Of a DNA stretch of 49,242 nt, positions 12,605-43,094 are shown piece by piece. How positions within the stretch are numbered: the first letter of the stretch is position 1; the number at the start of each line of letters is the position of its first letter. The notes beneath the pieces are model-generated. The model ran no database searches. It saw nothing but the letters and a program-made list of their open reading frames with translations, and was not told the origin of the DNA. The position numbers and the translations under genes were made by a program. Origin of the DNA: Candidatus Gygaella obscura (GTDB lineage Bacteria > Omnitrophota > Gorgyraeia > Gygaellales > Gygaellaceae); assembly GCA_030765485.1 (NCBI GenBank), contig JAVCCR010000013.1, forward strand, positions 1 to 49,242. Direction: 5' to 3'.

Positions 12605-12611
12605 TTTTCCA

Positions 12612-13278: not shown

Positions 13279-13590
13279 ATGAATTGCATAGAACGTGAAA
13301 AGAAGACAATAAGCGCGATGATAAATATGTATTGCAGGGCTTTTCATAGTTCAAAAGCAAGTCCTTGTTTTGAATGTAAGGAAGTAAAAGATTATGCATA
13401 TTTTCGTCTTGATAGATGCATTTATGCAGCTAATAAACCAACATGCAATAAATGCAAGGTTCAGTGTTGGGAAGTAGCATATAAGGATAGGATTATTAAT
13501 ATAATGCGATTTTCCGGTCCGCGATTAATTTTTACCCACCCCATACTAGCTTTTATGCATATTGTTGATAGTATAAAATCAAAGAAATAA
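13279..13590 (+). CDS. YgbA-like protein (nitrous oxide-stimulated promoter family)
   Basis: A 103-residue protein resembling PF11756, the family of E. coli YgbA. It shows the EREKKTISAMINMYCRAFH N-terminus, a set of conserved cysteines (CFEC, CIYAANKPTCNKCKVQCW) and MRFSGPRLIFTHPILAFMH near the end. In proteobacteria ygbA belongs to the NsrR nitric-oxide regulon. The cysteines suggest zinc or iron-sulfur binding. Molecular function is unknown. It lies 4 bases after the HAD gene and is the last gene before the rex promoter. Confidence 0.82.
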   Translation: MNCIEREKKTISAMINMYCRAFHSSKASPCFECKEVKDYAYFRLDRCIYAANKPTCNKCKVQCWEVAYKDRIINIMRFSGPRLIFTHPILAFMHIVDSIKSKK

Positions 13591-13685: not shown

Positions 13686-14303
13686 ATGAAAAAAATCTCC
13701 CGCAATACAATCAATCGAGTTCTTTTATACATAAGAGTCCTGGAGGACTTGATAAAAGATAAGCGTTACCTTGTTTCTTCCGGTGATATATCCAGGATTA
13801 TTGGTGTTTCTGATGTTCAAATCAGAAAAGATATTTCCAGATTTGGCAAGGTAGGTACACCTAGAATAGGCTATCGAACCGTAGATTTAAAAAAGATTCT
13901 CAAAGATTTTATATTACAACGTGATGTTGTTCGTATTGTTCTTTTTGGTGTGGGGAATTTAGGTACAGCAATTTTAAAATACCCAGCTTTTAATAAAGAT
14001 AAAATTAAAGTAGTTGCTGCGTTCGATAGACTTGGGAGTAAGATACATAAGAAAATAAATTCTGTAATTGTCTATCCTGTTGAAAGGGCTCCCGAGGTTA
14101 TAAAAAAGGTGCGTGCAGACATTGGGATAATCGCAGTGCCCAAACGGTCTGCTCAAGGTGTTGCGGATATTATGGTTTTATCGGGATTACGCGGTATAGT
14201 TAATTTTTCACCTTCCGCGATAAACGTTCCTAAAAACGTAATGGTTAAGGATATAGACTTAACCATAGAATTTTTGTCATTATTTTGTAGTATGCATGTT
14301 TAA
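13686..14303 (+). CDS. rex: Redox-sensing transcriptional repressor Rex
   Basis: A repressor that reads the NADH/NAD+ ratio and switches off reductive and fermentative genes when NADH is low. It is 205 residues: an N-terminal winged helix (residues about 1-75, with VSSGDISRIIGVSDVQIRKD as recognition region and GTPRIGY hinge), a Rossmann domain starting IVLFGVGNLGTAIL, and a C-terminal swap helix (VMVKDIDLTIEFLSLF). It heads the hydrogenase cluster behind a consensus promoter, so it is likely to control both itself and hydrogen production. In fermentative anaerobes Rex commonly regulates NAD-linked hydrogenases. Confidence 0.95.
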   Translation: MKKISRNTINRVLLYIRVLEDLIKDKRYLVSSGDISRIIGVSDVQIRKDISRFGKVGTPRIGYRTVDLKKILKDFILQRDVVRIVLFGVGNLGTAILKYPAFNKDKIKVVAAFDRLGSKIHKKINSVIVYPVERAPEVIKKVRADIGIIAVPKRSAQGVADIMVLSGLRGIVNFSPSAINVPKNVMVKDIDLTIEFLSLFCSMHV

Positions 14304-14318: not shown

Positions 14319-14690
14319 ATGCATAAAATTTTAATGGTAGACGATGATAGAGAATTCCTGGAAGCAAGTAAGATTGTATTGGAGGCTAATGATTATGAAG
14401 TGATATTGGCTGAGAATGTTTCTAGTGCAGAAGCAATGATATATAGCGATAAGCCGGATTTAATTATTCTTGATATTATGATGGAACAACCAGACGATGG
14501 AATTGCTCTAGCGCATAAACTTAAAAAAAGCGGGATAGGTATTCCGGTTATAATGCTAAGCGGCGTTAGTACTGTTACAGGGTATGATTACGGTGAATGT
14601 AATGAGGTTTTGCCGTGTAGCGATTTTTTAGAAAAACCTGTTACGCCGGAAAACCTGTTGAATAAAATCGAGAAGATACTGAAAAAATAG
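14319..14690 (+). CDS. Stand-alone receiver-domain protein next to the NuoE-like gene
   Basis: A 123-residue receiver domain with nothing attached. The acidic pocket is Asp8, Asp9 and Asp10, the phosphoacceptor is Asp52 (LIILDIMM), the switch residue is Ser81 (IMLSG) and the lysine is Lys106 (EKPV). The ribosome binding site is strong (AAGGAGG). The gene sits 18 bases before the NuoE-like hydrogenase subunit. In the second hydrogenase set the corresponding receiver is fused to NuoE in one polypeptide (20540-21412), and the two receivers share LEANxYEV and LIILDxMM segments. It therefore probably acts on the hydrogenase, not on DNA. The histidine kinase at 18702 is the likely phosphodonor. Confidence 0.9.
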   Translation: MHKILMVDDDREFLEASKIVLEANDYEVILAENVSSAEAMIYSDKPDLIILDIMMEQPDDGIALAHKLKKSGIGIPVIMLSGVSTVTGYDYGECNEVLPCSDFLEKPVTPENLLNKIEKILKK

Positions 14691-14708: not shown

Positions 14709-15185
14709 ATGGTTAAAACTTGTGCAGTTGAAAAGAAAATTAAAATTAACGGAAAAGATATTATTGTCTGTGATGAATCACGTTCAAAGTTGCTTTTTGT
14801 ATTGCAGGAAGTGCAGGATAAAAAAGGATTTATTAGTGATGCGGATATGCAGGATATAGCAGATAAATTTGCTATTCACCCCGTGGAGGTCTATTCTGTG
14901 GTGAGTTTTTACTCTTTTCTTACGAATAAAAAAAAGGGCAAATATGTCATTAGGGTAAGTACCTGTGTCTCTTGTCAAATGGCTGGCAGCAGTAAGATTA
15001 TAAAAGAATTGGAAAAATTGCTTAAGATTAAATGCGGCGAGACAACAAAAGATAAAAAAATGAGTCTTGAGAAAACTAGTTGCATCGGAATGTGCGATCA
15101 GGCACCGGCAATAATGATTAATGAAATATTAATCGGCAAAGTAACTAAGGAAAAGTTGAAGAAAATATTAAAGGAGTTGAAATAA
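14709..15185 (+). CDS. NuoE-like [2Fe-2S] subunit of NAD(H)-linked hydrogenase 1 (HydC/HndA type)
   Basis: A 158-residue thioredoxin-fold ferredoxin of the NuoE family, normally the [2Fe-2S] partner of the NuoF-like flavoprotein in multimeric [FeFe]-hydrogenases. The helical N-terminus (VLQEVQDKKGFISDADMQDI and HPVEVYSVVSFYSF) is typical. The second cysteine pair is Cys125/Cys129 (CIGMC). The first pair is unusual: family members have C-x4-C, but here the first position is Ser84 and a Cys appears two residues later, giving Cys86-x2-Cys89 (STCVSC). The gene overlaps the NuoF-like gene by one base (TAATG), showing translational coupling. Confidence 0.9.
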   Translation: MVKTCAVEKKIKINGKDIIVCDESRSKLLFVLQEVQDKKGFISDADMQDIADKFAIHPVEVYSVVSFYSFLTNKKKGKYVIRVSTCVSCQMAGSSKIIKELEKLLKIKCGETTKDKKMSLEKTSCIGMCDQAPAIMINEILIGKVTKEKLKKILKELK

Positions 15186-16408
15186 TGTCCAAGACTACAT
15201 CAAAAGGAAAGGAAAATAGTTTAGTCATCTTTAGCAAGATAGAACCGGTTTCCGGTGTAAAAAGAGCATTACAAATTGGAAGAAGAGAGATTCTTGATGT
15301 TGTCAGGGACTCTAATCTTAAAGGCAGAGGAGGAGCGGGATTTCCTACTGGGGTTAAATGGAATCTAGCAGCTGCGGCTACAAGCGATAAAAAATATGTA
15401 GTCTGTAATGCTGACGAAGGAGAGCCGGGGACATTTAAAGATAGACTTCTTATAAATCAATTTACAGAGCTTTTTTTAGAAGGCATGATAATTGCCGGTT
15501 TTGCCATTGGGGCTGAGCAGGGATTTGTTTATTTAAGAGGCGAATATAAGTCTTTTCTACCTGTTTTAGAAAAGGCAATAGATTCTTTGCGAAAAAGCAA
15601 TATTCTAGGAAAGTCTATTTTAGCTAGAAAAGATTTTAATTTTAATATTGAGGTTCGTTTAGGGGTAGGTGCTTATGTTTGCGGAGAGGAAACTGCTTTG
15701 ATAGAATCTTTAGAAGGCAACAGAGGCGAACCGCGCAATAGACCGCCATTTCCTGTAAATACCGGTTTTAACGCTAACCCCACGATTATAAATAACGTTG
15801 AGACTTTTGCGAATATTCCTCATATCGTAACAAAAGGATCCAAGTGGTTTAAGTCTTTTGGAACTGAGAAATCTTCTGGCACAAAATTATTGAGTATTTC
15901 CGGTGATTGTAAAAAACCAGGGGTATATGAAGTACCTTTTGGGGTTTCTGTTAAAGAAGTATTAAAACTTTGTGATGCTAAAGATGTGAAGGCGGTTCAG
16001 GTTGGCGGTGCATCTGGAGTATGTGTTTCAAAAAAAGACTTCAACAGAAAAATTTCATTTGAGGATCTTTCTACAGGAGGTTCGGTTATAGTTTTTGGTA
16101 AAAAGAGAAATATGCTTGAAGTGGCTGATAATTTCTTGGAGTTTTTTAAAGAGGAATCTTGTGGACAGTGTACGCCTTGTCGTGAAGGTATCCCGGTTTT
16201 AATTGAAGCTTTAGAGTTATTAAGAAAAGGTGAGTGTAGTAAAGAGTATTTAAAGGATATATTTTCTTTGGCAGAGACTATGGAATTAGCTTCTAAGTGC
16301 GGTTTGGGTCAATCAAGCGCTAAGGCCCTGATTTCAATCATAAATAATTTTAAAGATGAATATAGTTTATCAAAATCAAAAGATAACAGGAAGGTTTTCA
16401 ATGGATAG
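15185..16408 (+). CDS. NuoF-like NADH/FMN subunit of hydrogenase 1 (HydB/HndC type, short form)
   Basis: The flavoprotein subunit that exchanges electrons with NAD(H). Its 407 residues contain the NADH/FMN site (GRGGAGFPTGVKW, residues 47-59; CNADEGEPGTFKDR, 74-87), GVGAYVCGEETALIESLEG, and the [4Fe-4S] motif ESCGQCTPCREG with a distal Cys in SKCGLGQ. It lacks both the N-terminal thioredoxin-like ferredoxin domain and the C-terminal pair of [4Fe-4S] clusters found in the second copy at 21402. It is therefore closer in plan to respiratory NuoF. It is coupled to NuoE-like (TAATG) and overlaps hydA1 by 8 bases. Confidence 0.92.
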   Translation: MSKTTSKGKENSLVIFSKIEPVSGVKRALQIGRREILDVVRDSNLKGRGGAGFPTGVKWNLAAAATSDKKYVVCNADEGEPGTFKDRLLINQFTELFLEGMIIAGFAIGAEQGFVYLRGEYKSFLPVLEKAIDSLRKSNILGKSILARKDFNFNIEVRLGVGAYVCGEETALIESLEGNRGEPRNRPPFPVNTGFNANPTIINNVETFANIPHIVTKGSKWFKSFGTEKSSGTKLLSISGDCKKPGVYEVPFGVSVKEVLKLCDAKDVKAVQVGGASGVCVSKKDFNRKISFEDLSTGGSVIVFGKKRNMLEVADNFLEFFKEESCGQCTPCREGIPVLIEALELLRKGECSKEYLKDIFSLAETMELASKCGLGQSSAKALISIINNFKDEYSLSKSKDNRKVFNG

Positions 16409-18317
16409 CAAAAAACCATTTGCTCAGGATACTTCAAGGGCTCCGGTAAGTCAAAGAGGACAAAAAGTAGTCGAAGTAAAGGATAAAGCATTAGGAAATT
16501 TAGTTAAGGTAACAATTGATGATATTGAGATTAAAGTGTCTATGGGTACGACAATTCTTGAAGCTGCCAAAACCTTGAGTATAAAAATTCCTACTCTTTG
16601 TCAACATGATGATTTATGCTTGGCAGGGGTTTGTCGAGTTTGTGTTGTTGAGGTTGAAGGACAGCGTACTCTACAGGCATCGTGTTCTTATCCTATATAT
16701 AATTCTCTTAAGGTTAGGACTTATTCTCCTAAAGTAAGAAGGGCAAGACGTAATATTATACAGCTATTGTTACGTAATCACTATGGCGAATGCTATTCTT
16801 GTGCAAGGAACAATAATTGCGAATTGCAGAGTTTGGCTAAAGAATATGGTGTAACTACATATAAATTTGGTCATATCGATAAGCCGCGTTATGAAAAGGA
16901 TCAGTCAAGCTATGCCGTTGAGCGAGATATGAATAAATGCGTATTATGCCGTAGGTGTGTAAGGACCTGTATTGATTTACAGGAAGTAGGAGTTTTAGAG
17001 GCAGTACATAGAGGCAGCAATACTAAAATAGAGACTTATCAGGATAGACCATTAAACGAAGTGGTTTGTATTAATTGTGGTCAATGTATTAATAGGTGCC
17101 CTACAGGAGCCTTAAAGGCAAAGGATCCGGCTCAAGATGTTTGGGATGCTATAGATAATTCAACTAAACATGTGATAATTCAGACTGCTCCCAGTCCGCG
17201 AGCGGCAATTGGTGAAGCTTTTGGTTTGCCGGCTGGAACAAGTGTTACCAAAAAGCTTAATACTGCTTTAAAACGTATGGGTTTTGATAAGGTTTTTGAT
17301 ACGAATTTTACCGCTGATCTTACCATTATGGAAGAGGGTATAGAGCTTCTTTTAAGACTTAAGAAAGCTTTGGTGGATAAGGATAAATCGGTTGCCTTGC
17401 CGCAATTTACATCATGTTCTCCTGGCTGGGTAAAATTTATCGAGTATTTTTATCCTGAGAAGCTAAAGCATGTTTCTACTGCCAAGAGTCCTCAGCAAAT
17501 GTTTGGAGCAATTGTAAAAACATGGTATGCGAAAAAACACAAGATTGACCCAAAAAATATTGTAAGTGTATCTTTAATGCCGTGTTCTGCTAAAAAGTTT
17601 GAGTGTGAACGTCCAGAGATGAATGATTCGGGTTTTAAGGATGTTGATTATGCCTTGACCACTAGAGAGCTTGCTGGCATGATTAAAGAGTGCGGCATGG
17701 ATTTACCGAAATTGCCTGATTCTGATTTTGATGATCCTTTAGGTATCGGAACAGGCGCAGCTTTGATTTTTGGTGCAACCGGAGGAGTTATGGAAGCAGC
17801 TATTAGAACTGCCTATGAGCTTGTAACAGGGGAAGAGGTTCCTTTTGATAAGTTAAGAATAATTCCTGTTAGGGGTATGGAGGGCATAAGAAAAGCAGAG
17901 TTACCTGTAAAGAAGGCGAAAGATGAATGGAAATTCTTAGAAGGCGTAACTTTGAAGGTTATGGTGGGTCACGGTACAGCCAATGCCAAAAAGATTATGG
18001 ATTTGCTTTGTGAGGGTAAATTGTCCGATTATCATTTTGTAGAAATTATGGCTTGCCCCGGAGGTTGCCTTGGAGGAGGAGGTCAACCTATCCCCACAAG
18101 CCCTGAAATAAGAGAGGCACGCGCAAAGGCTATTTATGCAGAAGAAGAGAGTCTTTCGATTAGAAAATCCCATGAGAACCCGATAGTTAAAACTATATAT
18201 AAGGAATTTTTGACAGAAGGACCTTGTGGTCATTTGAGTCATAAGTTATTACATACTTCATATACGCCGCGCGGTAAATGGATAGGAAGTTTTAAGAAAA
18301 ATAGAAAACGAGGATAA
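16401..18317 (+). CDS. hydA: [FeFe]-hydrogenase catalytic subunit 1 (modular, NADH-linked type)
   Basis: Reduces protons to H2. ATG 16401 is chosen because AGGAAGG at 16388-16394 lies 6 bases before it; an upstream ATG at 16356 lacks a site. The 638 residues carry a [2Fe-2S] domain (CQHDDLCLAGVCRVC, Cys95), a His-Cys3 cluster (HYGECYSCARNNNC, 127-140), two [4Fe-4S] motifs (CVLCRRCVRTC; CINCGQCINRC), then the H-domain. L2 is MPCSAKKFE (Cys395) and L3 is EIMACPGGCLGGGGQP (Cys552, Cys556). L1 is TSCSPGW (337-343): Ser340 occupies the second Cys of TSCCPxW, a cubane ligand in the Clostridium pasteurianum enzyme. The spacing to Cys395 matches that enzyme exactly. Confidence 0.95.
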   Translation: MDSKKPFAQDTSRAPVSQRGQKVVEVKDKALGNLVKVTIDDIEIKVSMGTTILEAAKTLSIKIPTLCQHDDLCLAGVCRVCVVEVEGQRTLQASCSYPIYNSLKVRTYSPKVRRARRNIIQLLLRNHYGECYSCARNNNCELQSLAKEYGVTTYKFGHIDKPRYEKDQSSYAVERDMNKCVLCRRCVRTCIDLQEVGVLEAVHRGSNTKIETYQDRPLNEVVCINCGQCINRCPTGALKAKDPAQDVWDAIDNSTKHVIIQTAPSPRAAIGEAFGLPAGTSVTKKLNTALKRMGFDKVFDTNFTADLTIMEEGIELLLRLKKALVDKDKSVALPQFTSCSPGWVKFIEYFYPEKLKHVSTAKSPQQMFGAIVKTWYAKKHKIDPKNIVSVSLMPCSAKKFECERPEMNDSGFKDVDYALTTRELAGMIKECGMDLPKLPDSDFDDPLGIGTGAALIFGATGGVMEAAIRTAYELVTGEEVPFDKLRIIPVRGMEGIRKAELPVKKAKDEWKFLEGVTLKVMVGHGTANAKKIMDLLCEGKLSDYHFVEIMACPGGCLGGGGQPIPTSPEIREARAKAIYAEEESLSIRKSHENPIVKTIYKEFLTEGPCGHLSHKLLHTSYTPRGKWIGSFKKNRKRG

Positions 18318-18319: not shown

Positions 18320-18658
18320 ATGTTGTATGAACCAAAAAAAACCTTAGATGAATTCGTAAAGCTTATGGAAGATATTAAAAAAAGCGTTCCTTCTGAGTAT
18401 GACGCTTTTATTCGTGAGAAGATGATAGTGACTAAATCTGGCGCTTTGGATGAAAAGACAAAATGGTTATTGCTTTTAGTAGCTAGCGTTACTGAAAAAT
18501 GTCCTGTTTGTATTTCTCGCGCAGTAAAACATTGCCTTGAACAAGGGTTTTCAAAGCAAGAATTGTTGGAGGCATGCATGGTGGCAGTTTTAGTAGGTGG
18601 TTCTTCTGTTATGACTTATGTTACTTTGGTGGACAAGGCAATTGAAGAATTAAAGTAG
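18320..18658 (+). CDS. AhpD/carboxymuconolactone decarboxylase-like protein
   Basis: A 112-residue all-helical protein of the AhpD-like family. The redox signature CPVCISRAVKH (CxxC followed by His seven residues later) matches the active site of AhpD-type peroxidase or thiol-disulfide proteins; EACMVAVLVGGSSVM follows. It begins 2 bases after hydA1 with a GAGG ribosome binding site, so it is part of the hydrogenase unit. A protective role against peroxide, or thiol exchange with the hydrogenase, is plausible but inferred. True decarboxylase activity is unlikely. Confidence 0.85.
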   Translation: MLYEPKKTLDEFVKLMEDIKKSVPSEYDAFIREKMIVTKSGALDEKTKWLLLLVASVTEKCPVCISRAVKHCLEQGFSKQELLEACMVAVLVGGSSVMTYVTLVDKAIEELK

Positions 18659-18701: not shown

Positions 18702-20534
18702 ATGAAAAAGATAAAAAGTTTAAAGAATCAGATACTGGTTTCTTTTGTTGTTATTATTATTGTTTTTGCTGTTTTGGTTAGCATCCTGGGTTTTTATGTG
18801 ATACAAAATGATATTATTGCCAGAGCGAAAAATGAAGTTGAAAACGCCATAGATGCTGCCGAGACTGTTTATAAATCCGAGTTAGATAAGATTAAGACCG
18901 CACTTTTAATCAGGGAAGATAATCTTGAAGTTTTAAAAGATATAATCGGGCTTGATTATATTTATGAAGTTGATATAAAAGATAAAAGTAATATCAAAAG
19001 TCAGATAGCGCGTTTTGCTTTTAATGGTAGAGGTTATGGCGCTACGAGAGTTATTGATAAGGAAGAATTAGATTCTTTGTTTTCAGGTTTAGCTGATAGG
19101 TTAAAGATTGATATTAAATCAACACCAAAGGCAATTCCTACTAAAAGGAGCTCATTAAATAGCGTCCTTGCGATTGAATACGCGTATCCTGTTGAAGATG
19201 ATAAAGGTAATGTAACTTCAGTCCGCTATGCAGGAAAAATAATTAATAAAGAATTTAGCTTAGTTGATAAAATCAGGGATTTAGTTTTTGAGGATATTAG
19301 TTACGATAAAAAGCCTTATGGTACGGTTACGATATTCCAGGATGATGTGAGGGTATCGACCAATGTTTTAACCAAAAATGGCGACAGGGCCATAGGTACG
19401 CGTGTTTCAAAAGAAGTTTATGATGCGGTTATCACTCGCGGTCGAATATGGCAGAAGCGGGCATTTGTAGTAAATGATTGGTATTTGACATGTTATAAAC
19501 CAATAAAAAATATTACTGGAGATGTAATTGGTATTCTTTATGTAGGTATCCTGGAGAAGCCTTTTATTGATTTAAAAATGAGGTTTTTTCTGGCATTTTT
19601 ATTTATAGTAATCTTAAGTATTATTCTAGCAGTATTGTTATCTGTTTTTCTTGCGGATAGGATTTCAAAACCGGTAATTGAAATAACTAATGCTACGGCA
19701 AAAATTTCTGACGGAGAGCTCACACATAGATTACAGAATAAAATTTTTATTAAGGAAATAAGCGAGTTAGCTAATTCTTTTAATAACATGGCTGAGAGAC
19801 TTCATGAGAGAGATGTCAGTCTAAAAAGCTCTAAAGAACAAGTTGAGGTTTTAAATAAACGTTATCTGGATATGGTTGGGTTTGTTTCCCATGAGTTAAA
19901 AGGAATTCTATCTTCCATTGTACTCAACACTTATTCTTTGAAGAAAGGATTAGTTGGTCCTATCAATGAGGCGCAGCGAAAAACGCTAAATTCAATTTCC
20001 AATAATCTTGATTACTTGACTTCTACTGTAAAGAATTTCTTAAGTCTCAGTCGTATCGAGAAAGAAGAGATGGTTCTTAATAAAACTAAGTTCAGGCTTA
20101 AGCAAGATTTGATTTTTCCGGCGATAGAGGCTTTTAATCATCAAGCTGTTGAAAAAGATATCAATATTATTGATAATACCGAAAGCGATATAGAGCTTTA
20201 TGCCGACATTTCACTGATGCAGATTCTGATTAACAATCTTTTAAGCAATGCAGTTAAATATGGTTCTGAGCATGGCAATATTGTTATTACTGCTAAAAAA
20301 GAGATTGAAAAAATATTGTTTGAAGTATATAACGAAGGCCGTCCAATCGATGTAGTCGATAAAGATAAACTATTCAGAAAATTCTCTAGAGTTATTTACC
20401 GGGGTATGGAAAAAATCAAAGGCACCGGTATAGGTTTATATATTGTTTCAGAGATTGTCAAGCGCCATAATGGTAAAATTTGGCTGGAGACGAAAAGCGA
20501 AGGCAATACTTTTAAGGTACAGTTTCCTCTTTAA
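18702..20534 (+). CDS. Membrane sensor histidine kinase (Cache-HAMP-HisKA-HATPase)
   Basis: A 610-residue kinase. A membrane helix at about residues 11-34 is followed by a roughly 260-residue extracytoplasmic Cache_3-Cache_2-like sensor (GTVTIFQDDVRVSTNV, RAFVVNDWYLTCYKPI, GILYVGILEKPF), a second helix at about 295-318, HAMP, and a dimerisation helix with phospho-acceptor His397 in GFVSHELKGILSS. The H-box lacks the usual RTPL tail. The ATPase domain has LLSNAVKYG (N box) and KGTGIGLYIVSEIVKRHNG (G2). It lies between the two hydrogenase sets, 5 bases before the receiver-NuoE fusion, its likely substrate. The signal sensed is unknown; Cache domains usually bind small metabolites. Confidence 0.92.
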   Translation: MKKIKSLKNQILVSFVVIIIVFAVLVSILGFYVIQNDIIARAKNEVENAIDAAETVYKSELDKIKTALLIREDNLEVLKDIIGLDYIYEVDIKDKSNIKSQIARFAFNGRGYGATRVIDKEELDSLFSGLADRLKIDIKSTPKAIPTKRSSLNSVLAIEYAYPVEDDKGNVTSVRYAGKIINKEFSLVDKIRDLVFEDISYDKKPYGTVTIFQDDVRVSTNVLTKNGDRAIGTRVSKEVYDAVITRGRIWQKRAFVVNDWYLTCYKPIKNITGDVIGILYVGILEKPFIDLKMRFFLAFLFIVILSIILAVLLSVFLADRISKPVIEITNATAKISDGELTHRLQNKIFIKEISELANSFNNMAERLHERDVSLKSSKEQVEVLNKRYLDMVGFVSHELKGILSSIVLNTYSLKKGLVGPINEAQRKTLNSISNNLDYLTSTVKNFLSLSRIEKEEMVLNKTKFRLKQDLIFPAIEAFNHQAVEKDINIIDNTESDIELYADISLMQILINNLLSNAVKYGSEHGNIVITAKKEIEKILFEVYNEGRPIDVVDKDKLFRKFSRVIYRGMEKIKGTGIGLYIVSEIVKRHNGKIWLETKSEGNTFKVQFPL

Positions 20535-20539: not shown

Positions 20540-21412
20540 ATGAAGAATAAAGTACTAATTATCGATGATGATTTTGATTTCGTTGAGGCTGTTAAAACGC
20601 TTCTAGAGGCTAACGGATATGAAGTTTCGCTTGCCTATGATGGACATGACGGTTTTCAAAAAATCAAGAATGAGTCTCCCGAACTTATTATTCTCGATAT
20701 GATGATGACCTATAAGACAGAAGGTGTAGATATTGCAAAAACCATTTCACAGGACGCAGCGACAAAAGATATTCCTGTGCTTCTTATTACTGGTGCAAAA
20801 AAGGATATGAATTTTCCTTTTGATCTTGAGCCGGATGAGAATAATTTGCCTGTTAAGGCTGTGTTGGAAAAACCTATTCAGCCGGAAGTGCTTCTTAAGA
20901 TGGTTACCACCTATATTAAACAAACCGGAGACAAGCATAGGGTGCTTGTGGAAGAGTTAAAGTCTTTGGTAGATAAATGGTCTGGGAAAAAAGGGAAGCT
21001 TATAATGATTTTACATGAGATTCAAAATCATTACGGGTATGTCCCCAGGGCTATTTCTTTTGAGCTTTCTAGGTTATTGGATATACCTCTTGCCAGGATT
21101 TATGAGGTAATTACTTTCTATAATTTTTTTAAATTAATTCCTCCGGGAAAACATCTGATATCGTTATGCATGGGTACGGCATGTTATTTAAAAGGAGCAC
21201 AGGCTATCTTAAACGAATTAAAAAAAATTCTTAAAATCGAAGAAGGCGAGACAACAAAAGATGGATTGTTCCATCTGCAGGTAGTAAGATGTTTAGGTTG
21301 TTGTGGTCTTGCTCCGGTTATTATGATTGACAATAAAGTATTTGCCAGGGTGAGTAAAGATACAGTTGTTGATATTGTCTCCGGATACAGGGAAAGATTA
21401 GATGAAAAATAA
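20540..21412 (+). CDS. Receiver domain fused to NuoE-like hydrogenase subunit
   Basis: A 290-residue fusion. Residues 1-128 form a complete receiver domain (acidic residues Asp9-Asp11, phosphoacceptor Asp53, switch Thr84, Lys111). Residues about 135-290 form a full NuoE-like [2Fe-2S] domain: HEIQNHYGYVPRAISFELSR, IYEVITFYNFF, then Cys210-x4-Cys215 (CMGTAC) and Cys251-x3-Cys255 (CLGCC). Both halves retain their functional residues. A DNA-binding output is absent, so phosphorylation by the kinase 5 bases upstream should act directly on an electron-transfer subunit. It overlaps the NuoF-like gene by 11 bases. The frame runs unbroken through the junction, so this is not two adjacent genes. Confidence 0.93.
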   Translation: MKNKVLIIDDDFDFVEAVKTLLEANGYEVSLAYDGHDGFQKIKNESPELIILDMMMTYKTEGVDIAKTISQDAATKDIPVLLITGAKKDMNFPFDLEPDENNLPVKAVLEKPIQPEVLLKMVTTYIKQTGDKHRVLVEELKSLVDKWSGKKGKLIMILHEIQNHYGYVPRAISFELSRLLDIPLARIYEVITFYNFFKLIPPGKHLISLCMGTACYLKGAQAILNELKKILKIEEGETTKDGLFHLQVVRCLGCCGLAPVIMIDNKVFARVSKDTVVDIVSGYRERLDEK

Positions 21413-23237
21413 GTTTACGCAGATTAAGAATAAATACAAACATAGCATTTCTAAAACTACGATTAAGGTGGGTTTAAGTAGTTGTGGTATTGCTGCAGGT
21501 GCCAAAGAAATTTTTGACCTATTACAGCAAGAGATTAAAAAACAGTCATTGGATATAGAATTAAAACGCTGTGGTTGTGTTGGAATGTGTTATGCTGAGC
21601 CTCTGGTTGAGGTACATGTTAAGGGAATGCCGCAGGTTACTTATGGTCGTGTTGATAAGAATGTTGCTTTAGATATTATTAATCTTCATATTAATAAAAA
21701 GCAGTTATTGGAAGATTATATATATAGAATTAAATCTGATAAACCGTTAAAATTAAAAAGGAAGATAGATAATAAAGCATTTGATAAACAGGTCCGTTTT
21801 GTTTTAAGGAATTGCGGTATTATTGATCCTGAAAATATCGAGGATTATATTGCAGCAGGTGGTTATGAAGGTTTCTTAAATGTTTTGGATTCATCGAATG
21901 ATAAGATAATTGAAGAATTAAAATCAAGCGGTCTTCGCGGGCGAGGCGGAGGCGGTTTCCCTACCTGGATGAAGTGGAAATTTGCCAAGGATATTGACGA
22001 AGATGAGAAATATATAATCTGTAATGGCGATGAGGGAGATCCAGGAGCCTATATGGATAGAAGTATTCTTGAAGGAGATCCTCATAGTGTTTTAGAAGGC
22101 ATGATGATAGCTGCTTTTTGTGTTGGTGCAAAAAAAGGCTTTTTATATATCCGCGCAGAATACCCTCTTGCAATTGAAAGAATACAGAAAGCAATTGATC
22201 AGGCGTATTCATTAGGATTACTAGGTAAGAATATATTAAATTGCGGTTTTAATTTTGATCTTGATATAAGGCTTGGTGCAGGTGCTTTTGTTTGTGGAGA
22301 GGAGACTGCCTTGATTGCTTCTATTGAAGGAAAGCGTGGCTGTCCGTCTCCTAGGCCTCCATATCCATCAATTAAAGGTCTTTGGGGTAAACCAACGGTT
22401 ATTAACAATGTTGAGACCCTGGCTAATGTTTCTTTTATATTCTTAAATGGAGCGAAAAAGTTTTCTCGATTAGGAAGCGCAACATCAAAGGGAACAAAAG
22501 TATTTGCCCTTACTGGAAGGGTAAAAAATTCCGGTCTTGTTGAAGTGCCTATGGGTACGACGATTCGTGAAATTGTTTTTGATATTGGCGGAGGACTTAT
22601 TAATGATAAAAAAATCAAGGCTGTTCAAACAGGCGGTCCTTCCGGAGGAGTAATACCAGAAGAGTTTTTAGATACAGGGGTAGATTATGAGAATCTGCAG
22701 CGGTTAGGTTCGATTATGGGTTCGGGTGGAATGATCGTAATGGATGAAGACGATTGTATGGTTGATATCGCCAAGTTTTACATGAGATTTTGTGTTGATG
22801 AAAGTTGTGGAAAGTGTGCCCCTTGCAGGATTGGGACCTATCAGATGCTCGAGATTTTAAAACAGATTTCAAAAGGGCGTGCAACAAGGTCCGATATTGA
22901 AAAGCTAGAATTAATCTGTAAAGCAACGCAAAAAGCTTCACTTTGCGGTCTTGGTCAAACTGCGCCAAATCCGGTTATTTCTACTTTAAAGTATTTCAAA
23001 GAGGAATATATAGAGCATATCAATGAAAAGAAATGCAGGAGTAAGAAATGTCTAGCTCTTTTAAACTACAGCATAGTAAAGGAAAACTGCAAAAAATGCG
23101 GAATTTGTGCTTTGAATTGTCCTGTTAAGGCAATCATCGGAGATCCTTCAAAAGGGTTTGTTATTGATAAGGAAAAGTGTATAAAATGCGGTAAATGTTT
23201 TGAGGTGTGTAAATTTGATGCAATCATAAGAGAGTAA
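21402..23237 (+). CDS. NuoF-like NADH/FMN subunit of hydrogenase 2 (HydB/HndC type, long form)
   Basis: A 611-residue flavoprotein with the full plan of bifurcating-type hydrogenase HydB. It has an N-terminal thioredoxin-like [2Fe-2S] domain (Cys28; Cys57, Cys59 and Cys63 in RCGCVGMCYAEP), the NADH/FMN core (GRGGGGFPTWMKW, CNGDEGDPGAYMDR, FVCGEETALIASIEG), the [4Fe-4S] motif ESCGKCAPCRIG, and a C-terminal ferredoxin region with two [4Fe-4S] sets (CKKCGICALNC and CIKCGKCFEVC). It differs from the short copy at 15185 by both end domains. It overlaps the receiver-NuoE gene and is one base from hydA2, so the three are co-translated. Confidence 0.94.
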   Translation: MKNKFTQIKNKYKHSISKTTIKVGLSSCGIAAGAKEIFDLLQQEIKKQSLDIELKRCGCVGMCYAEPLVEVHVKGMPQVTYGRVDKNVALDIINLHINKKQLLEDYIYRIKSDKPLKLKRKIDNKAFDKQVRFVLRNCGIIDPENIEDYIAAGGYEGFLNVLDSSNDKIIEELKSSGLRGRGGGGFPTWMKWKFAKDIDEDEKYIICNGDEGDPGAYMDRSILEGDPHSVLEGMMIAAFCVGAKKGFLYIRAEYPLAIERIQKAIDQAYSLGLLGKNILNCGFNFDLDIRLGAGAFVCGEETALIASIEGKRGCPSPRPPYPSIKGLWGKPTVINNVETLANVSFIFLNGAKKFSRLGSATSKGTKVFALTGRVKNSGLVEVPMGTTIREIVFDIGGGLINDKKIKAVQTGGPSGGVIPEEFLDTGVDYENLQRLGSIMGSGGMIVMDEDDCMVDIAKFYMRFCVDESCGKCAPCRIGTYQMLEILKQISKGRATRSDIEKLELICKATQKASLCGLGQTAPNPVISTLKYFKEEYIEHINEKKCRSKKCLALLNYSIVKENCKKCGICALNCPVKAIIGDPSKGFVIDKEKCIKCGKCFEVCKFDAIIRE

Positions 23238-23238: not shown

Positions 23239-24984
23239 ATGATAAAAGCAAAAATAAACAATATAGAAGTAGAGGTAGCGGAAAATACGACAATTCTTGA
23301 TGCGGCCAAGAAAATAAATATAAATATTCCTACACTTTGTAAGCATCCTGATTTAAATGCAACTGCTGCATGCGGAATATGCATAGTGAAGCTTAAAAAT
23401 AACAATAAGATGCTTCGTTCCTGCTGCACGCCTTTAGAAAACAATATGGATATTATTACCCATGATGATGAGCTTCAAAGCATAAGACGTACAGTAATAG
23501 AACTTATTCTTTCTAATCATCCTAATGATTGCCTTCAGTGTGCCAGAAATAATAATTGCGAATTGCAGAGTTTGGCAGCTGATTTTGGAATAAGGGAAGT
23601 GCCCTTTAAACAGTTTTTAAGAAAGATTCCTGAAGATTCATCAACCAAGACAATTAGTATTGTACCAGAAAAATGTATTCTTTGCGGTCGATGCGTTCAG
23701 GTTTGTCAGGATATTCAGGATGTTTGGGCTTTATCATTTTTAGAACGTGGGCACAAGACCCGTATTTCAGGTGCAGGAGATATTAATTTAAGTGAAAGTC
23801 CTTGCGTTCGCTGCGGCCAATGTTCTGCGCATTGTCCGACTGGCGCAATCGCTGAATACGATCAGACTACAATGGCTTGGGACATGCTTTACAATAAGCA
23901 AAAATTCTGTGTTGCTCAAATTGCCCCAGCAGTCCGCGTTGCCATAGGCGAAGCCTTTGGTTTTAAGGATGGAGCCAATCTCACTGGAAAGCTTTACGCT
24001 GCTTTGCGTAGGTTAGGGTTTAAGGCCATATTCGATACTTCTTTTGGAGCTGATCTTACAATTATGGAAGAGGCGTCAGAGTTTGTCAGCAGATTTGTTC
24101 ATAAAAAAGGAAAGCTGCCTTTGATTACGACATGCTGTCCTTCATGGGTGGATTTTATGGAAAAGTTCTATCCTGATATGATAGAGCATTTTTCAACAGC
24201 AAAAAGCCCGCATGAGATGGTTGGGGTGCTTTCTAAAACTTATTATGCTAAGAAGAATAATATTGATCCTAAAAACGTGGCGATGATTTCTGTTATGCCT
24301 TGCACTTCCAAAAAGTATGAGATTACAAGAAATGATGATATGTTTGCTTCTGGAAACCAGGACATAGACATTGTTTTAACCACCAGAGAATTGGCTCGTA
24401 TGATAAAACAGGCAGGGATTGCATTTGAAGACCTGCCGGATGAACAACCGGATCATATTTTAGGTGAATATAGCGGAGCAGGTGTAATCTTTGGAGCCAC
24501 AGGTGGTGTTATGGAGGCAGCTTTAAGAACAGCATATTTTTTAGTAACAGGCGAAAATTATCCGAATATAGAGTTTAAAAGTGTCAGGGGATTAAAAGGG
24601 GTTAAGGAAACGGAAATAGATATTTCAGGGAAAAAGATAAAAATTGCTATTGCACATGGGCTTGGTAATGTAAAATATGTAATAAATAGGATTGAGAAGG
24701 CGATTGCTGAAGGAAGCGAATTACCGTATCATTTCGTTGAGGTTATGGCTTGCGTTGGTGGTTGTGTTGGCGGCGGCGGTCAGCCTTATGGTGTAACGGA
24801 TAAGCTTCGTATTGCCCGTGCAAACGGACTTTATGCGGATGATGAAAGTAAAGAAATTCGTTATTCTCATGACAACCCGTTTATTAAAAAACTTTACGAT
24901 GATTTTTTAGTTAAACCTTTAAGCGATAAATCTCATAGTTTGCTGCATACAATGTATAAACCACGAGCTCTTTATAAGAAATAA
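23239..24984 (+). CDS. hydA: [FeFe]-hydrogenase catalytic subunit 2
   Basis: The second H2-forming catalytic subunit, 581 residues. It has an N-terminal [2Fe-2S] domain (CKHPDLNATAACGIC), a His-Cys3 cluster (HPNDCLQCARNNNC), two [4Fe-4S] motifs (CILCGRCVQVC and CVRCGQCSAHC) and a full H-domain: L1 TTCCPSW (Cys299 proton-relay position, Cys300 ligand), L2 MPCTSKKYE (Cys355) and L3 EVMACVGGCVGGGGQP (Cys505, Cys509). All H-cluster ligands are present, unlike HydA1 where the second L1 Cys is Ser. It is the last gene of the structural block; a 116-base gap with RNA-folding potential follows. Confidence 0.96.
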   Translation: MIKAKINNIEVEVAENTTILDAAKKININIPTLCKHPDLNATAACGICIVKLKNNNKMLRSCCTPLENNMDIITHDDELQSIRRTVIELILSNHPNDCLQCARNNNCELQSLAADFGIREVPFKQFLRKIPEDSSTKTISIVPEKCILCGRCVQVCQDIQDVWALSFLERGHKTRISGAGDINLSESPCVRCGQCSAHCPTGAIAEYDQTTMAWDMLYNKQKFCVAQIAPAVRVAIGEAFGFKDGANLTGKLYAALRRLGFKAIFDTSFGADLTIMEEASEFVSRFVHKKGKLPLITTCCPSWVDFMEKFYPDMIEHFSTAKSPHEMVGVLSKTYYAKKNNIDPKNVAMISVMPCTSKKYEITRNDDMFASGNQDIDIVLTTRELARMIKQAGIAFEDLPDEQPDHILGEYSGAGVIFGATGGVMEAALRTAYFLVTGENYPNIEFKSVRGLKGVKETEIDISGKKIKIAIAHGLGNVKYVINRIEKAIAEGSELPYHFVEVMACVGGCVGGGGQPYGVTDKLRIARANGLYADDESKEIRYSHDNPFIKKLYDDFLVKPLSDKSHSLLHTMYKPRALYKK

Positions 24985-25100: not shown

Positions 25101-25361
25101 ATGAATAAAAGAATCGGTTTTGTGGGAATAATTATCGAAAATAGAAAGGTTAATGCATCTTTAGTTAATAAGGTGTTATCTGAATATGCAGATTTTATCG
25201 TTGCCAGAACTGGTGTTCCTGTAAAAGAAAGAAACTGTTCTGTAATAAATTTGGTTGTGGATATTTCTACTGATGACTGCGGTTCTTTAACTGGCAGGCT
25301 TGGTAAAATTGAAGGTGTTTCAGTTCGTTCGGTTCTCAGCAAGGAGAAAAAAGATGTTTAA
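25101..25361 (+). CDS. TM1266-type iron-only hydrogenase system regulator
   Basis: An 86-residue ACT-like protein. It matches the small TM1266 family found almost only beside [FeFe]-hydrogenase maturation genes: KRIGFVGIIIENRKV at the start, VLSEYADFIVARTGVP in the middle, and LTGRLGKIEGVSVRSVLS at the end. It is presumed to be a ligand-sensing regulator or assembly helper; the ligand is unknown. It has an AAAGGAG ribosome binding site and overlaps hydF by 8 bases, so it forms a unit with hydF, hydG and hydE. Confidence 0.9.
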   Translation: MNKRIGFVGIIIENRKVNASLVNKVLSEYADFIVARTGVPVKERNCSVINLVVDISTDDCGSLTGRLGKIEGVSVRSVLSKEKKDV

Positions 25362-26604
25362 GACGCCGAAGTCTTTAAGATTGCAACTTGGTCTATTTGG
25401 CAGAACTAATGTTGGTAAGTCTACGTTTTTAAATTATGTTGCTTCTCAAGATGTAGCGATTACCTCACCTGTTCCTGGAACAACAACTGATGTTGTGGAA
25501 AAGTCAATGGAGCTTCTTCCAATCGGCCCGGTAGTGTTTTTAGATACGGCTGGTCTGGATGATGTTTCTTGTCTTGCAAAAGAAAGACTGAAGAAGACAA
25601 AAAATATTTTCACTAGAGCCGATATGTTTGTAATTTTAACTGAATCAAATAAATGGCAGGGATATGAAGATGAAATAGTAAAAGAAGCTGACAAACAAAA
25701 TGCTCCAGTTATTATTATTGTTAATAAGATTGATTTAAATAGTCCCAAGAAAGATTTCCTGGATAAATTAAGTAAAATTTCTTCAAGAATAGTTTTATCT
25801 TCAAGTATTGATAGTCAAAATAGAGATCATACTATAAATGAATTTAAACGTTTTGTAATTGAGTTATGCCCCGAGGATTTTATAAATCCTCCTGCGTTAA
25901 TAGGTGATTTATTACCTAAAAAGGATTTGGCGATATTAATCGTTCCTATTGATCTTGAGGCTCCCAAAGGAAGGATAATTCTGCCGCAGGTTCAGGCAAT
26001 AAGAGATATTTTAGATAATAATCAGATGTCTTTAGTAGTAAAAGAATCTGAATTCAAAAAGTCTTTGGATAATCTAAAGGTAAAACCCTCTTTAGTTGTC
26101 TGCGATTCTCAGGTTGTAGATCGCATGGTAAAGGAAACTCCCAAAGATATAAAATGTACAACGTTTTCCATTCTTTTTACGCGTTATAAGTCAGATTTAC
26201 TCCAGGAGGTTAAGGGGGTTTTTACAATAGATGAGCTTAAGAAAACCGATAAGATTTTGATTGCCGAGGCCTGTTCGCATCATCCAATAGGAGACGATAT
26301 CGGACGCGTCAAGATTCCTAAATGGCTTCGGGATTATTTAGGTTTTGATCTGGGCATTGATGTTACCGCTGGTAGGGATTATCCAGATGATTTAAGTAAA
26401 TATAAATTAATTATTCATTGTGGCGCCTGTATGATTACCCGCAGGGAAATGCTTGCAAGAATTCAAAAAGCAAGGGAAGAATCCATTGCTGTTACTAATT
26501 ACGGTATTGCTATTTCTTATTTAAATGGTGTTTTAGAGCGCGTATTAAGTCCATTTCCAGAGGCATTGAGGATATTTCAACAAGAGAAAGCGAAGCAAAA
26601 ATGA
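25354..26604 (+). CDS. hydF: [FeFe]-hydrogenase maturation GTPase HydF
   Basis: The scaffold GTPase that carries the diiron subcluster and delivers it to HydA. ATG 25354 is chosen because AAGGAG precedes it; the upstream in-frame ATG at 25300 has none. The 416 residues show G1 FGRTNVGKST, G3 DTAGLDD and G4 NKID, then a dimerisation region and a C-terminal cluster domain with EACSHHPIGDDIGRVKIP and HCGACMITRRE, supplying the conserved CxHx(n)HCxxC ligands. All expected motifs are intact. Its stop overlaps the hydG start (ATGA). Confidence 0.96.
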   Translation: MFKTPKSLRLQLGLFGRTNVGKSTFLNYVASQDVAITSPVPGTTTDVVEKSMELLPIGPVVFLDTAGLDDVSCLAKERLKKTKNIFTRADMFVILTESNKWQGYEDEIVKEADKQNAPVIIIVNKIDLNSPKKDFLDKLSKISSRIVLSSSIDSQNRDHTINEFKRFVIELCPEDFINPPALIGDLLPKKDLAILIVPIDLEAPKGRIILPQVQAIRDILDNNQMSLVVKESEFKKSLDNLKVKPSLVVCDSQVVDRMVKETPKDIKCTTFSILFTRYKSDLLQEVKGVFTIDELKKTDKILIAEACSHHPIGDDIGRVKIPKWLRDYLGFDLGIDVTAGRDYPDDLSKYKLIIHCGACMITRREMLARIQKAREESIAVTNYGIAISYLNGVLERVLSPFPEALRIFQQEKAKQK

Positions 26605-28091
26605 AAACTATCAATATAGATAATTGGATAAAACAAAGAATTAAACAAAATCAAATTGATAAGTATTTAAACAACGGTAAAGATTTTATAGATGATGATA
26701 AACTAAATAGTTTATTAGCCAAAAATAATAGGCCTGATAATAAGCTTATAGAGGATATTATAGCTAAGAGTCTAGAGATAAATACTCTTAGTCTTGAAGA
26801 GGTAGCATGTCTTTTAAACGTTGAAGATGACAATCTTTTAGAAAAGATGAAACAGGCTTGCAAAAGGATAAAAAAGAATGTGTATGATAATAGGATTGTT
26901 ACCTTTGCCCCGCTTTATCTGGGAAATTTTTGCGTTAATGATTGCCTTTATTGCGGGTTTAAAAGGTCTAATTTACAGGCAAAAAGAAGAGTACTTTCAG
27001 TTGAAGAGATAAAAAGAGAAGTCAAGGTTTTGGCTGGTAAAATCGGACATAAAAGACTTATTGTTGTCTATGGAGAAGACCCTAGGCAGGGTATTGATTA
27101 TATGATGCAGTCTATAAAAGCGATTTATTCGGTCCAAGAGAAAACAAAACACGGCGTAGGTTCAATTAGACGCGTGAATGTCAATGCTTCGCCACTTTCG
27201 GTTGAGGAGCTTCAAAAATTAAAAGAAGTTGGAATCGGGACCTATCAGGTTTTTCAGGAAACTTATCATCACGATACGTACAAGAAGGTGCACCCGATTA
27301 ATACCATAAAAGGTAATTATGCCTGGAGGTTATATTGTATGCACAGGGCTTTTGAAGCAGGTGTAGATGATGTAGGTTTGGGGGTTCTATTTGGTCTTTA
27401 TGACTGGAGATTTGAGGTTTTGGGGCTTTGTGCACATAATATTGAACTTGAGAAGCGTTTTAATATTGGAGCTCATACTATATCATTTCCCAGACTTGAG
27501 CCAGCACATAATGCTCCTTTAACGCTTAAGTCTCAGTTTAAGGTAAATGATAGAGATTTTAAAAAGCTTATAATGGTGATTAGGCTTGCTGTGCCATATA
27601 CAGGTATGATTATTACTGCAAGAGAGAATGCTTTAATCAGAGAAGAAGCAGTGGAATTGGGCATAACTCAGACAGATGCTTCTACTAAAATCGGAATCGG
27701 TGCATATAGTGAAAATAAAGATATCCAAGAAGATGATCGTCAGCAGTTTATTTTAGGTGATACCAGAAGCTTAGATGAATTAATCCGTTCTTTTGCAAAA
27801 AAAGGTCATATTACTTCTTTTTGTACAGCTGGATACCGCTGCGGTAGAACAGGTAAATGCATTATGGAGCTTCTCAAGTCTGGAGCAGAAGGCAAATTCT
27901 GTAAGCTTAATGCAATACTTACTTTTCGTGAATGGTTAGATGATTTTGCGAGTGAAGAGACTAAGAAAGTAGCTGAGCCGGTGATAGAAAAAGAAATTAA
28001 TGAAGTAAAAAAATCTATGCCTAAGGTATTTACGCAGTTTATGGATTATTATGGTAGAATCAAGCAGGGCGAGCGGGATCTATACTTTTAA
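26601..28091 (+). CDS. hydG: [FeFe]-hydrogenase maturase HydG (tyrosine lyase), variant C-terminal cluster motif
   Basis: A radical SAM enzyme that splits tyrosine to give the CO and CN ligands of the H-cluster. It is 496 residues, the usual length. The SAM cluster is Cys111, Cys115, Cys118 (CVNDCLYC). HydG normally ends with CTACYR...C (CX2CX22C) holding a second cluster that forms the Fe(CO)(CN) product. Here the text is CTAGYRCGRTGKC: Cys408 and Cys434 are kept, the middle ligand is Gly411, and extra cysteines sit at 414 and 420. The shift may be compensatory or may alter function. As the only HydG in view, it probably still serves both HydA proteins. Confidence 0.93.
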   Translation: MKTINIDNWIKQRIKQNQIDKYLNNGKDFIDDDKLNSLLAKNNRPDNKLIEDIIAKSLEINTLSLEEVACLLNVEDDNLLEKMKQACKRIKKNVYDNRIVTFAPLYLGNFCVNDCLYCGFKRSNLQAKRRVLSVEEIKREVKVLAGKIGHKRLIVVYGEDPRQGIDYMMQSIKAIYSVQEKTKHGVGSIRRVNVNASPLSVEELQKLKEVGIGTYQVFQETYHHDTYKKVHPINTIKGNYAWRLYCMHRAFEAGVDDVGLGVLFGLYDWRFEVLGLCAHNIELEKRFNIGAHTISFPRLEPAHNAPLTLKSQFKVNDRDFKKLIMVIRLAVPYTGMIITARENALIREEAVELGITQTDASTKIGIGAYSENKDIQEDDRQQFILGDTRSLDELIRSFAKKGHITSFCTAGYRCGRTGKCIMELLKSGAEGKFCKLNAILTFREWLDDFASEETKKVAEPVIEKEINEVKKSMPKVFTQFMDYYGRIKQGERDLYF

Positions 28092-28092
28092 A

Positions 28093-29067
28093 ATGGATAA
28101 AAGTGAAATTTTAACTTATTTAACAAAAACCCCTTTTGATGAATTAGTCAATGCGGCTAATTCTTTAAGGAAAAAGCATATTGGAGAAAAAGTTTATATT
28201 CGGGCAATAGTTGAATTCTCCAATTATTGTGTGAGAAATTGTCTTTATTGCGGTTTAAGAAAAGACAGCAAACAAATAGATAGATACAGAATGGTTTCTG
28301 ATGAAATATCTTCAGTTGTTAAAAAAATAACAAAAATTAATTTAAGGACAGTTGTTTTGCAGTCAGGGGATGATTTTTATTACACAAAAAAGAAAATATG
28401 TACTATTATAGAAGCTATTAAAAGTGCTGATAGTGATATTGCTATAACATTATCTATTGGAGAACGACCTTTTTCTGAATACGTTGCTTTTAGAAAATTA
28501 GGCGCAGATCGCTTTTTATTAAAGCATGAAACGATAAACAGCAGTCTTTATGCAAAATTACATCCTAGTCAGAATTTAAAAAGAAGAATCAAAACAATAG
28601 AGTATTTAAGAAAGATAGGTTTTCAGGTAGGTATTGGTAATATTATAGGTTTGCCAGGTCAGACATTAGAGGATTTAGCAGACGATATTATTTTTATGCA
28701 GGATTTTCAACCGGATATGATCGGGATAGGCCCATTTCTTCCGCAGAAATATACACCTTTAAATAAGCATGTTTTTAAGAATATAGATTTAGTTTTAAGA
28801 GTTATTGCTTTGGCTAGAATAGTTACAAAAGATTCTCATATTCCAGCAACTACAGCAATGGCAACAGCGAAAAAAAACGGGCAGTTGTCTGCTTTAGGTG
28901 TCGGAGCGAATGTAATAATGGTAGATTTTACGCCTTCAAAGTATAGAAAAAATTACAGGATATATGATGATAAGATTAAAATAAGTTTAAAAAAAGCAGA
29001 AGAGACTATTAGAGAAGCGGGCAGGGTTATGTCTTATGCTAGAGGCGATTCATTAAAAAATGAATAA
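28093..29067 (+). CDS. hydE: [FeFe]-hydrogenase maturase HydE
   Basis: A radical SAM maturase acting on the HydG-derived iron synthon during diiron-site assembly. It is about 324 residues from ATG 28093, chosen because it follows the hydG stop by one base; an in-frame ATG at 28051 would overlap hydG by 41 bases and gives an atypical N-terminus. Cys46, Cys50 and Cys53 (CVRNCLYC) bind the SAM cluster. Further typical text is VVLQSGDDFYYTKKKI, LSIGERPFSEY and GNIIGLPGQTLEDLADDI. No obvious ribosome binding site is present, so translation is likely coupled to hydG. Confidence 0.95.
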   Translation: MDKSEILTYLTKTPFDELVNAANSLRKKHIGEKVYIRAIVEFSNYCVRNCLYCGLRKDSKQIDRYRMVSDEISSVVKKITKINLRTVVLQSGDDFYYTKKKICTIIEAIKSADSDIAITLSIGERPFSEYVAFRKLGADRFLLKHETINSSLYAKLHPSQNLKRRIKTIEYLRKIGFQVGIGNIIGLPGQTLEDLADDIIFMQDFQPDMIGIGPFLPQKYTPLNKHVFKNIDLVLRVIALARIVTKDSHIPATTAMATAKKNGQLSALGVGANVIMVDFTPSKYRKNYRIYDDKIKISLKKAEETIREAGRVMSYARGDSLKNE

Positions 29068-35086: not shown

Positions 35087-35221
35087 ATGTCAATTAAAGA
35101 ATTTATAAAAAAGCTAAAAGATAATTTAATCAGTAGTATGGATAGATTAGATAAGAAAATAGAAAAAAAGGCTAAATCCAGATGTTGTTGCACTGGTGAA
35201 AAAAAGGAAGCAGATAAATGA
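35087..35221 (+). CDS. Small Cys-triplet protein coupled to permease (44 aa)
   Basis: A short gene with a good ribosome binding site (AGGAGAAG). It encodes a Lys-rich amphipathic helix followed by RCCCTGEKKEADK. The stop codon overlaps the start of the ArsP/YraQ-type permease (ATGA), so the two are translationally coupled. Three consecutive cysteines on a short charged peptide suggest soft-metal or metalloid (arsenic, copper, mercury) binding and delivery to the permease; this is inference. I do not recognise a named family. Confidence 0.7.
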   Translation: MSIKEFIKKLKDNLISSMDRLDKKIEKKAKSRCCCTGEKKEADK

Positions 35222-37990: not shown

Positions 37991-39554
<1,564 letters not shown>

Positions 39555-39787: not shown

Positions 39788-39793
39788 TTATGT

Positions 39794-39869: not shown

Positions 39870-39883
39870 AAGATAGAATTTTT

Positions 39884-39997: not shown

Positions 39998-42919
<2,922 letters not shown>

Positions 42920-43085: not shown

Positions 43086-43094
43086 TTTATAATT

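Follow-up and report, generated by a model that had tools for sequence, protein, structure and literature searches.

To our knowledge, two-component control of hydrogenases is known mainly at the level of transcription. For NADH-linked [FeFe]-hydrogenases the nearest descriptions concern Clostridium thermocellum, in which phosphatases, kinases and PAS/PAC sensors adjoin the bifurcating hydrogenases and are discussed, in the accessible part of the report, as agents of transcriptional control, and T. tengcongensis, in which histidine and Ser/Thr kinase genes lie by those of an NADH-linked hydrogenase (PMC3492117). Two-component parts are physically tied to the hydrogenase in the group C systems, to which a regulatory or sensory role is assigned in the available sections of two further papers: in Hydrogenedentota, group C1 and C3 [FeFe]-hydrogenase proteins carry HATPase, PAS or histidine-kinase domains, and some of them constitute the T subunit of the bifurcating BfuABC sub-types IV and V (PMC11406978); in Cloacimonadota, a group C1 hydrogenase adjoins a histidine kinase (PMC8542988). 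The occurrence of a gene for a response-regulator receiver next to a [NiFe] hydrogenase has also been interpreted, in the portion of the source at hand, in terms of H2 sensing (PMC5113046).

The locus described here departs from these arrangements. It lies in the window, i.e. the whole 49,242-nucleotide stretch of Candidatus Gygaella obscura (Omnitrophota) DNA that was analysed, where positions 20540-21412 of the forward strand form a single open frame, from ATG to stop, of 290 amino acids. Pfam scans assign residues 5-122 to Response_reg (PF00072; 63.3 bits against a cut-off of 30.2) and residues 141-283 to 2Fe-2S_thioredx (PF01257; 160.5 bits against 24.8), which bears out the initial annotation of this gene as a receiver joined in frame to a NuoE-type subunit. 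The receiver part (residues 1-127; 20540..20920, + strand) contains D53 (codon 20696-20698), T84 (20789-20791) and K111 (20870-20872), and the NuoE/HydC [2Fe-2S] domain (20960..21388, +) contains C210, C215, C251 and C255, all exactly where that annotation had placed them; D9 and D10 are present as well. It had also raised the possibility of a stop or frameshift between the domains. None is present, and a sequencing frameshift is excluded because intact copies of the fusion are found in the sister species (90% identity) and across numerous further assemblies; the closest relative of the protein, in genome G001 of the same genus, is 90% identical. With 24 distinct fusions and 0 internal stops, an artefact was likewise ruled out. 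Production of a separate NuoE from the internal start M156, invariant in the 23 aligned fusions, was judged unlikely; such a product would lack the first NuoE helix.

Like C. thermocellum and T. tengcongensis, the present locus has a kinase gene adjoining NADH-linked [FeFe]-hydrogenase genes, but in those organisms the regulators are separate upstream genes, and a receiver fused to NuoE goes unmentioned in the accessible part of that account (PMC3492117). The group C systems, as far as the available sections describe them, have a kinase that either adjoins a HydA-like protein of the sensory type or is joined to it (PMC11406978, PMC8542988), whereas here the receiver is fused to NuoE and the kinase is separate. 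No report of a receiver-NuoE fusion was found in the literature searched, but most subscription journals lie outside its coverage, so this absence is weak evidence. In the accessible main text of a survey of the Omnitrophota, which describes them as not yet isolated, the terms histidine kinase and response regulator do not occur (PMC10066038).

The fused gene belongs to an array running from a Rex-type redox repressor (CoA_binding and Put_DNA-bind_N by Pfam; 13686..14303) to position 29067, in which all genes lie on the + strand with small gaps; a YgbA_NO-family small protein (13279-13590; Pfam) is encoded immediately before Rex. The array contains two sets of hydrogenase genes, which are 33% identical in NuoE, 40% in NuoF and 45% in HydA. 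Ahead of set 1 lies the lone receiver REC1 (14319..14690; PF00072, 69.1 bits), which immediately precedes NuoE1 (14709..15185; PF01257, 150.7 bits), as initially annotated, and is followed further on by a short NuoF1 (15185..16408), HydA1 (16356..18317; NF040763, 816.3 bits) and a CMD-family small protein (18320..18658; PF02627). After the kinase gene discussed below, set 2 comprises the fusion, NuoF2/HydB (21402..23237), whose start overlaps the end of the fusion by 11 bases, and HydA2 (23239..24984; NF040763, 790.9 bits). Both HydA proteins thus exceed the cut-off (765) of NF040763, a model for the group A, NADH-dependent A6 enzymes; their first H-cluster motif reads TSCSPGW in HydA1 and TTCCPSW in HydA2. 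Downstream are a TM1266-family hydrogenase-associated putative regulator (25101..25361; TIGR03959, 94 bits against 60.8) and putative H-cluster maturase ORFs (25300..29067), homologs of which are kept in many relatives and which we take, from their sequences and operon context, to be HydF, HydG and HydE.

HydB of bifurcating enzymes is marked by two C-terminal [4Fe-4S] clusters and an N-terminal [2Fe-2S] part. NuoF2 possesses, besides its FMN and NADH_4Fe-4S domains, two C-terminal [4Fe-4S] motifs (Fer4 above cut-off in two stretches, and Cys motifs) and an N-terminal extension, which scores 20.8 bits against PF01257, below the cut-off of 24.8, with no match in the protein scan at E 0.001. NuoF1 lacks both additions and, to judge from these extra parts of NuoF2, set 2 would bifurcate and set 1 would not. 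In structure searches, and likewise in sequence searches, the NuoE part of the fusion finds HydC of the bifurcating HydABC enzymes of Thermoanaerobacter kivui (8a6t), Acetobacterium woodii (7q4v) and Thermotoga maritima (7p5h), the structure matches having 38-41% identity, and these complexes also have domains matching NuoF2 and HydA2. In contrast to the fusion, their HydC chains, of 156-189 aa, leave no room for a receiver and match the NuoE part only. At 94% completeness, the 1.38 Mb assembly encodes 25 receiver domains and just two NuoE domains above the Pfam cut-offs; hence the fused NuoE most likely serves the downstream NuoF2/HydA2.

Directly upstream, a sensor kinase gene (18702..20534, +) ends 5 bases before the fusion starts, and its earlier description as a Cache-type kinase is upheld by Pfam matches to sCache_3_3, HAMP, HisKA (H397, read from the H-box) and HATPase_c. 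The initial annotation went further in proposing a phosphorelay; in the strict His-Asp-His-Asp sense this lacks support, a scan of ten proteins of the operon having detected neither an Hpt domain nor a hybrid kinase. The Pfam scan of the operon genes also revealed no output domains other than those of the hydrogenase itself, and no DNA-binding domain was detected on either window receiver or on the other receivers scanned. This bears on the idea that the module regulates transcription, a role proposed, in the accessible part of the report, for the kinases and PAS sensors near the C. thermocellum enzymes (PMC3492117). In favor of such a role, Rex precedes the module in most relatives, but the receivers scanned show no DNA-binding domain and the fusion ties one of them to an enzyme subunit, and we regard transcriptional control by this module as highly improbable. 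The sole fused effector is an enzyme subunit, and in the simplest reading phosphorylation of the receiver would act through a rigid helix on the contact of NuoE with NuoF/HydA and so gate electron flow or complex assembly. We favor, with a probability of roughly 60%, the reading that a dedicated two-component module controls the trimeric NADH-linked [FeFe]-hydrogenase post-translationally; the phosphotransfer, its direction and its catalytic effect are what we infer here from sequence and context.

This reading draws on the relationship between the kinase and the phosphosite across the fusions, a natural experiment of sorts. The sample derives from 35 fused ORFs, of which 11 were the same contig encountered twice and were removed, leaving 24 distinct fusions, 21 of them from Omnitrophota genomes and three from elsewhere. 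Among 384 Omnitrophota genomes, a full-length fusion occurs in 20, and one more has a fusion truncated at the edge of its contig (scoring was confined to the six top candidates of each genome); additional fusions came from a contig scan with exact peptide patterns of the window protein, which distant fusions could escape. The 22 compared with the window protein are 53-90% identical to it. The alignment comprises 23 of the 24, L122 being cut by a contig end and left out. The four cluster cysteines are present in all 23 full-length fusions, and D9, D53, T/S84 and K111 occur together in 21 of 24.

These four receiver residues are kept in all 20 fusions with the kinase in the same genome, but in only one of the four without it (Fisher p 0.002, uncorrected for kinship and with the four-residue criterion chosen after the data had been seen). 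If D10 is also required, the figures become 19/20 and 1/4, the difference being a D10N change in the kinase-bearing L074. The kinase is encoded immediately 5' of the fusion in 19 of the 24; in a 20th, L077, scored here as kinase-bearing, the genome has it on a different contig, at the contig end. In the four kinase-less genomes the best kinase matches reach only 81-97 bits and 28-31% identity and are best read as ordinary kinases. In two of these, G200 and G255, the fusion is the next gene after Rex, at distances of about 20 and 220 bases, which leaves no kinase in the usual place. The accompanying changes differ between lineages: T84I with D10N in G255, D9V with D10N in G212, and D53E with D10A in G200 (L118; fusion 11815-12702). 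A glutamate at the phospho-acceptor aspartate is a frequent choice as a phosphate mimic, and the L118 protein is therefore possibly a naturally locked enzyme. G188, the gene of which is cut by a contig end, runs against the rule: it retains the core phosphosite though no kinase ortholog was found in its genome.

On a HydA2 tree of 22 of the 24 fusions (the stretches of L080 and L122 lack HydA2), all three independent kinase losses coincide with phosphosite loss, although with so few events a sign test gives p 0.25. On the same topology, the ratio of the terminal receiver branch to the NuoE branch is 7.1, 3.8 and 3.1 in the three site-losing lineages, as against a median of 0.9 (range 0.3-5.5) in 19 kinase-bearing rows (one-sided rank test p 0.01); NuoE branches were floored at 0.01, and the two ratios above 4 among the 19 rest on NuoE branches shorter than this. 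The receiver seems constrained while the kinase is present and relaxed once it is lost, with NuoE staying conserved throughout. The degenerate receivers of these three lineages might suggest that the domain is an unused remnant, but its evolution at about the rate of NuoE wherever the kinase is present, together with an almost fixed linker length, makes so neutral a status scarcely credible. Nothing else in the data argues as strongly for an action of the kinase on the fused receiver as this kinase-linked loss of the phosphosite, albeit three events are few, and we consider that the two very probably form a working pair.

The distribution of the kinase points in the same direction. Its orthologs (E 1e-60; best three candidates per genome scored) occur in 36 of the 384 Omnitrophota genomes, singly in each except G271, where the ortholog is split over two contigs. 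In 34 of the 36, each read directly, a Rex or hydrogenase gene adjoins the kinase; for G248 and G349 the stretch read stops about 1.9 kb short of the kinase, and its nearest gene is a cut NuoF. The fusion is found in 17 of these genomes, and in 18 others a lone receiver of the fused type lies in or beside the hydrogenase genes (17 placed on the receiver tree, and that of G167 assigned by its score of 150 bits), with receiver and kinase on different contigs in five (G119, G122, G167, G240 and G286). In the one other genome, G105, an unfused NuoE directly follows the kinase and another receiver precedes Rex. The usual unfused order is Rex, kinase, a small gene resembling the NuoF N-terminus, NuoF, HydA, NuoE, and then the receiver and maturases in varying order. 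The kinase therefore looks dedicated to the hydrogenase module.

Short kinases of 229-249 aa are encoded at three fusion loci (L080 469-1155, L082 8290-8976 and L115 8598-9344), the phosphosite being intact in all three. The domain scan of those of L082 and L115 detected HisKA and HATPase only, with neither Cache nor HAMP, and at the short-kinase loci signal input must come from elsewhere. These loci speak to a further possibility, namely that the fused receiver, by binding a membrane kinase, recruits the otherwise soluble hydrogenase to the membrane or a partner, with catalysis unaltered. The Cache and HAMP domains of the usual kinase do suggest that it is membrane-bound, and the receiver has been kept after loss of phosphosite residues in three lineages, as a docking domain might be; for the latter reason the fused domain may also have a structural role. 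Recruitment of this kind is nevertheless rendered less likely by the three relatives that pair a short kinase with a fully intact receiver, and L085, L118 and L119 keep the receiver though their genomes have no kinase ortholog as searched. We hence judge it unlikely.

Most kinase-bearing fusion operons encode a second receiver as well. In gene maps read by hand (L080, the contig of which is too short, being omitted), it is present in 17 of the 19 that could be evaluated, as REC1 before NuoE1 in six and after HydA2 in 11, the exceptions being L074 and L083. It is present in 0/4 of the kinase-less fusions, two of these cases being weak: in L085 the contig ends about 1.5 kb past HydA2, and in L118 a different receiver-bearing protein (36 bits) follows HydG. 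Equivalents of D9, D10, D53, S84 and K111 are found in all seven REC1 rows. This tendency of the kinase and lone receiver to vanish together could be taken to mean that information flows the other way, with the redox state of the NuoE cluster governing how the fused receiver, as a sink or timer, gains or loses phosphate, and the lone receiver carrying the output. That the real output is the lone receiver is a possibility that we have counted against direct control. But in Omnitrophota such receivers are only about 120-170 aa long and no partner was found for them, and we hold such a reversed flow to be rather improbable. More tentatively, and with a probability that we place well below even, one kinase might balance two NADH-linked hydrogenases, acting on the apparently bifurcating set 2 through the fused receiver and on set 1, which lacks the additional HydB clusters, through REC1 beside NuoE1. 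Such an arrangement would be a phosphate switch, residing in the enzymes, for electron flow between NADH, ferredoxin and H2.

The top five structural matches of the receiver part have Z scores of 20.9-22.1 and rmsd of 1.3-1.9 over 114-122 residues; it matches DivK, PleD, the HK853-bound RR468 and many others in structure searches. Its helix 4 region is modelled, with low confidence, as a loop or as a short turn and loop; receivers without a normal helix 4 exist. PleD, in which a receiver is joined to a diguanylate cyclase (2v0n, 2wb4), matches the receiver fold with Z 20.0-20.6 and offers a functional precedent, as phosphorylation of its receiver controls the fused enzyme. The output of PleD is a self-contained enzyme, whereas here it would be a single electron-transfer subunit within a larger redox complex. 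Among NCBIfam receiver families the fused receiver scores best with NF045717 (DVU0259-family), though at 65.7 bits it falls far under the cut-off of 160, and members of that family are unfused, lone receivers. The DVU0259-family receiver is encoded beside a redox complex in Desulfovibrio; no paper on DVU0258/DVU0259 was found in the literature searched.

Two AlphaFold2 models of the fusion (23 and 66 sequences; mean pLDDT 80 and 85) both yield the receiver and NuoE domains and predict that receiver helix 5 continues unbroken through the linker into the first NuoE helix (residues 115-146; 20882..20977, +), although at pTM 0.61 and 0.64 no reliance can be placed on how the domains are arranged with respect to each other. 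The spacing between K111 and the conserved W147 amounts to 37 residues in 21 of the 24 fusions and to 38 in the other three. Given this helix, we propose that phosphorylation of the receiver could reach NuoE. The membrane Cache kinase would autophosphorylate and pass the phosphate to D53 of the receiver in the HydC/NuoE subunit; the operon's other receiver, the lone one, would probably be a second target. Phosphorylation of D53 would shift the helix-5 face of the receiver, and the NuoE part might in consequence be moved or stiffened against NuoF/HydA, such that electron transfer or complex assembly is tuned. That a receiver is built into a hydrogenase subunit beside its own sensor kinase suggests that the enzyme is switched directly by phosphorylation. 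The initial annotation had suggested that the receivers act on the enzyme itself: what stands is that kinase, receivers and hydrogenase constitute one module in which the phosphosite tracks the kinase, and the effect on electron flow is the part we infer. The placement of a receiver with its own kinase and a kinase-tracking phosphosite in a core electron-transfer subunit suggests that H2 metabolism is controlled directly and fast. As NuoE-type subunits are common to complex I and other bifurcating enzymes, switches acting on NuoE could be sought there too.

In the receiver tree, which omits three of 75 receivers (two from L141, and one from L118 that lies within a longer protein), the fused receivers form one clade (100/100 support), nested within a broader group (97/85) made up of lone receivers encoded at other places in Omnitrophota hydrogenase operons; REC1 constitutes a separate clade (100/99). 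The initial annotation had paired the fusion in one hydrogenase set with the adjacent receiver in the other, and this holds as an arrangement, but the fused receiver groups with the lone receivers of other Omnitrophota operons and not with REC1. In G286 (L087/L123) and G119 (L137) a lone receiver immediately precedes an unfused NuoE, possibly reflecting the state before fusion, although the tree does not resolve these two as closest to the fused clade. In 350 genomes of the Chloroflexota, the phylum of the Anaerolineae record L093, no fusion was detected with a threshold of E 1e-40 (the six top candidates of each genome were scored), and the five Chloroflexota matches listed cover the NuoE part only. 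A fusion in a record titled Candidatus Auribacterota (L078 9001-9858) nests beside L076 of the Omnitrophota, and would represent either interphylum transfer or a misnamed bin. In the phylum of that record, one of 44 genomes has the fusion, and in three others a lone receiver lies directly downstream of NuoE. In the Anaerolineae L093 and L101, paired lone receivers directly precede NuoE-NuoF genes, and the link between receivers and NuoE may thus extend beyond the Omnitrophota.

Elsewhere, the window encodes a protein (8532-9722) that combines a GGDEF domain and an MshE-related c-di-GMP-binding motif with a receiver-like N-terminus scoring under the Pfam cut-off; an ArsP_1-family permease (35218-36174; Pfam); and a ribosomal RNA operon (38000-43090) that, as read by eye, has two tRNA genes between 16S and 23S.
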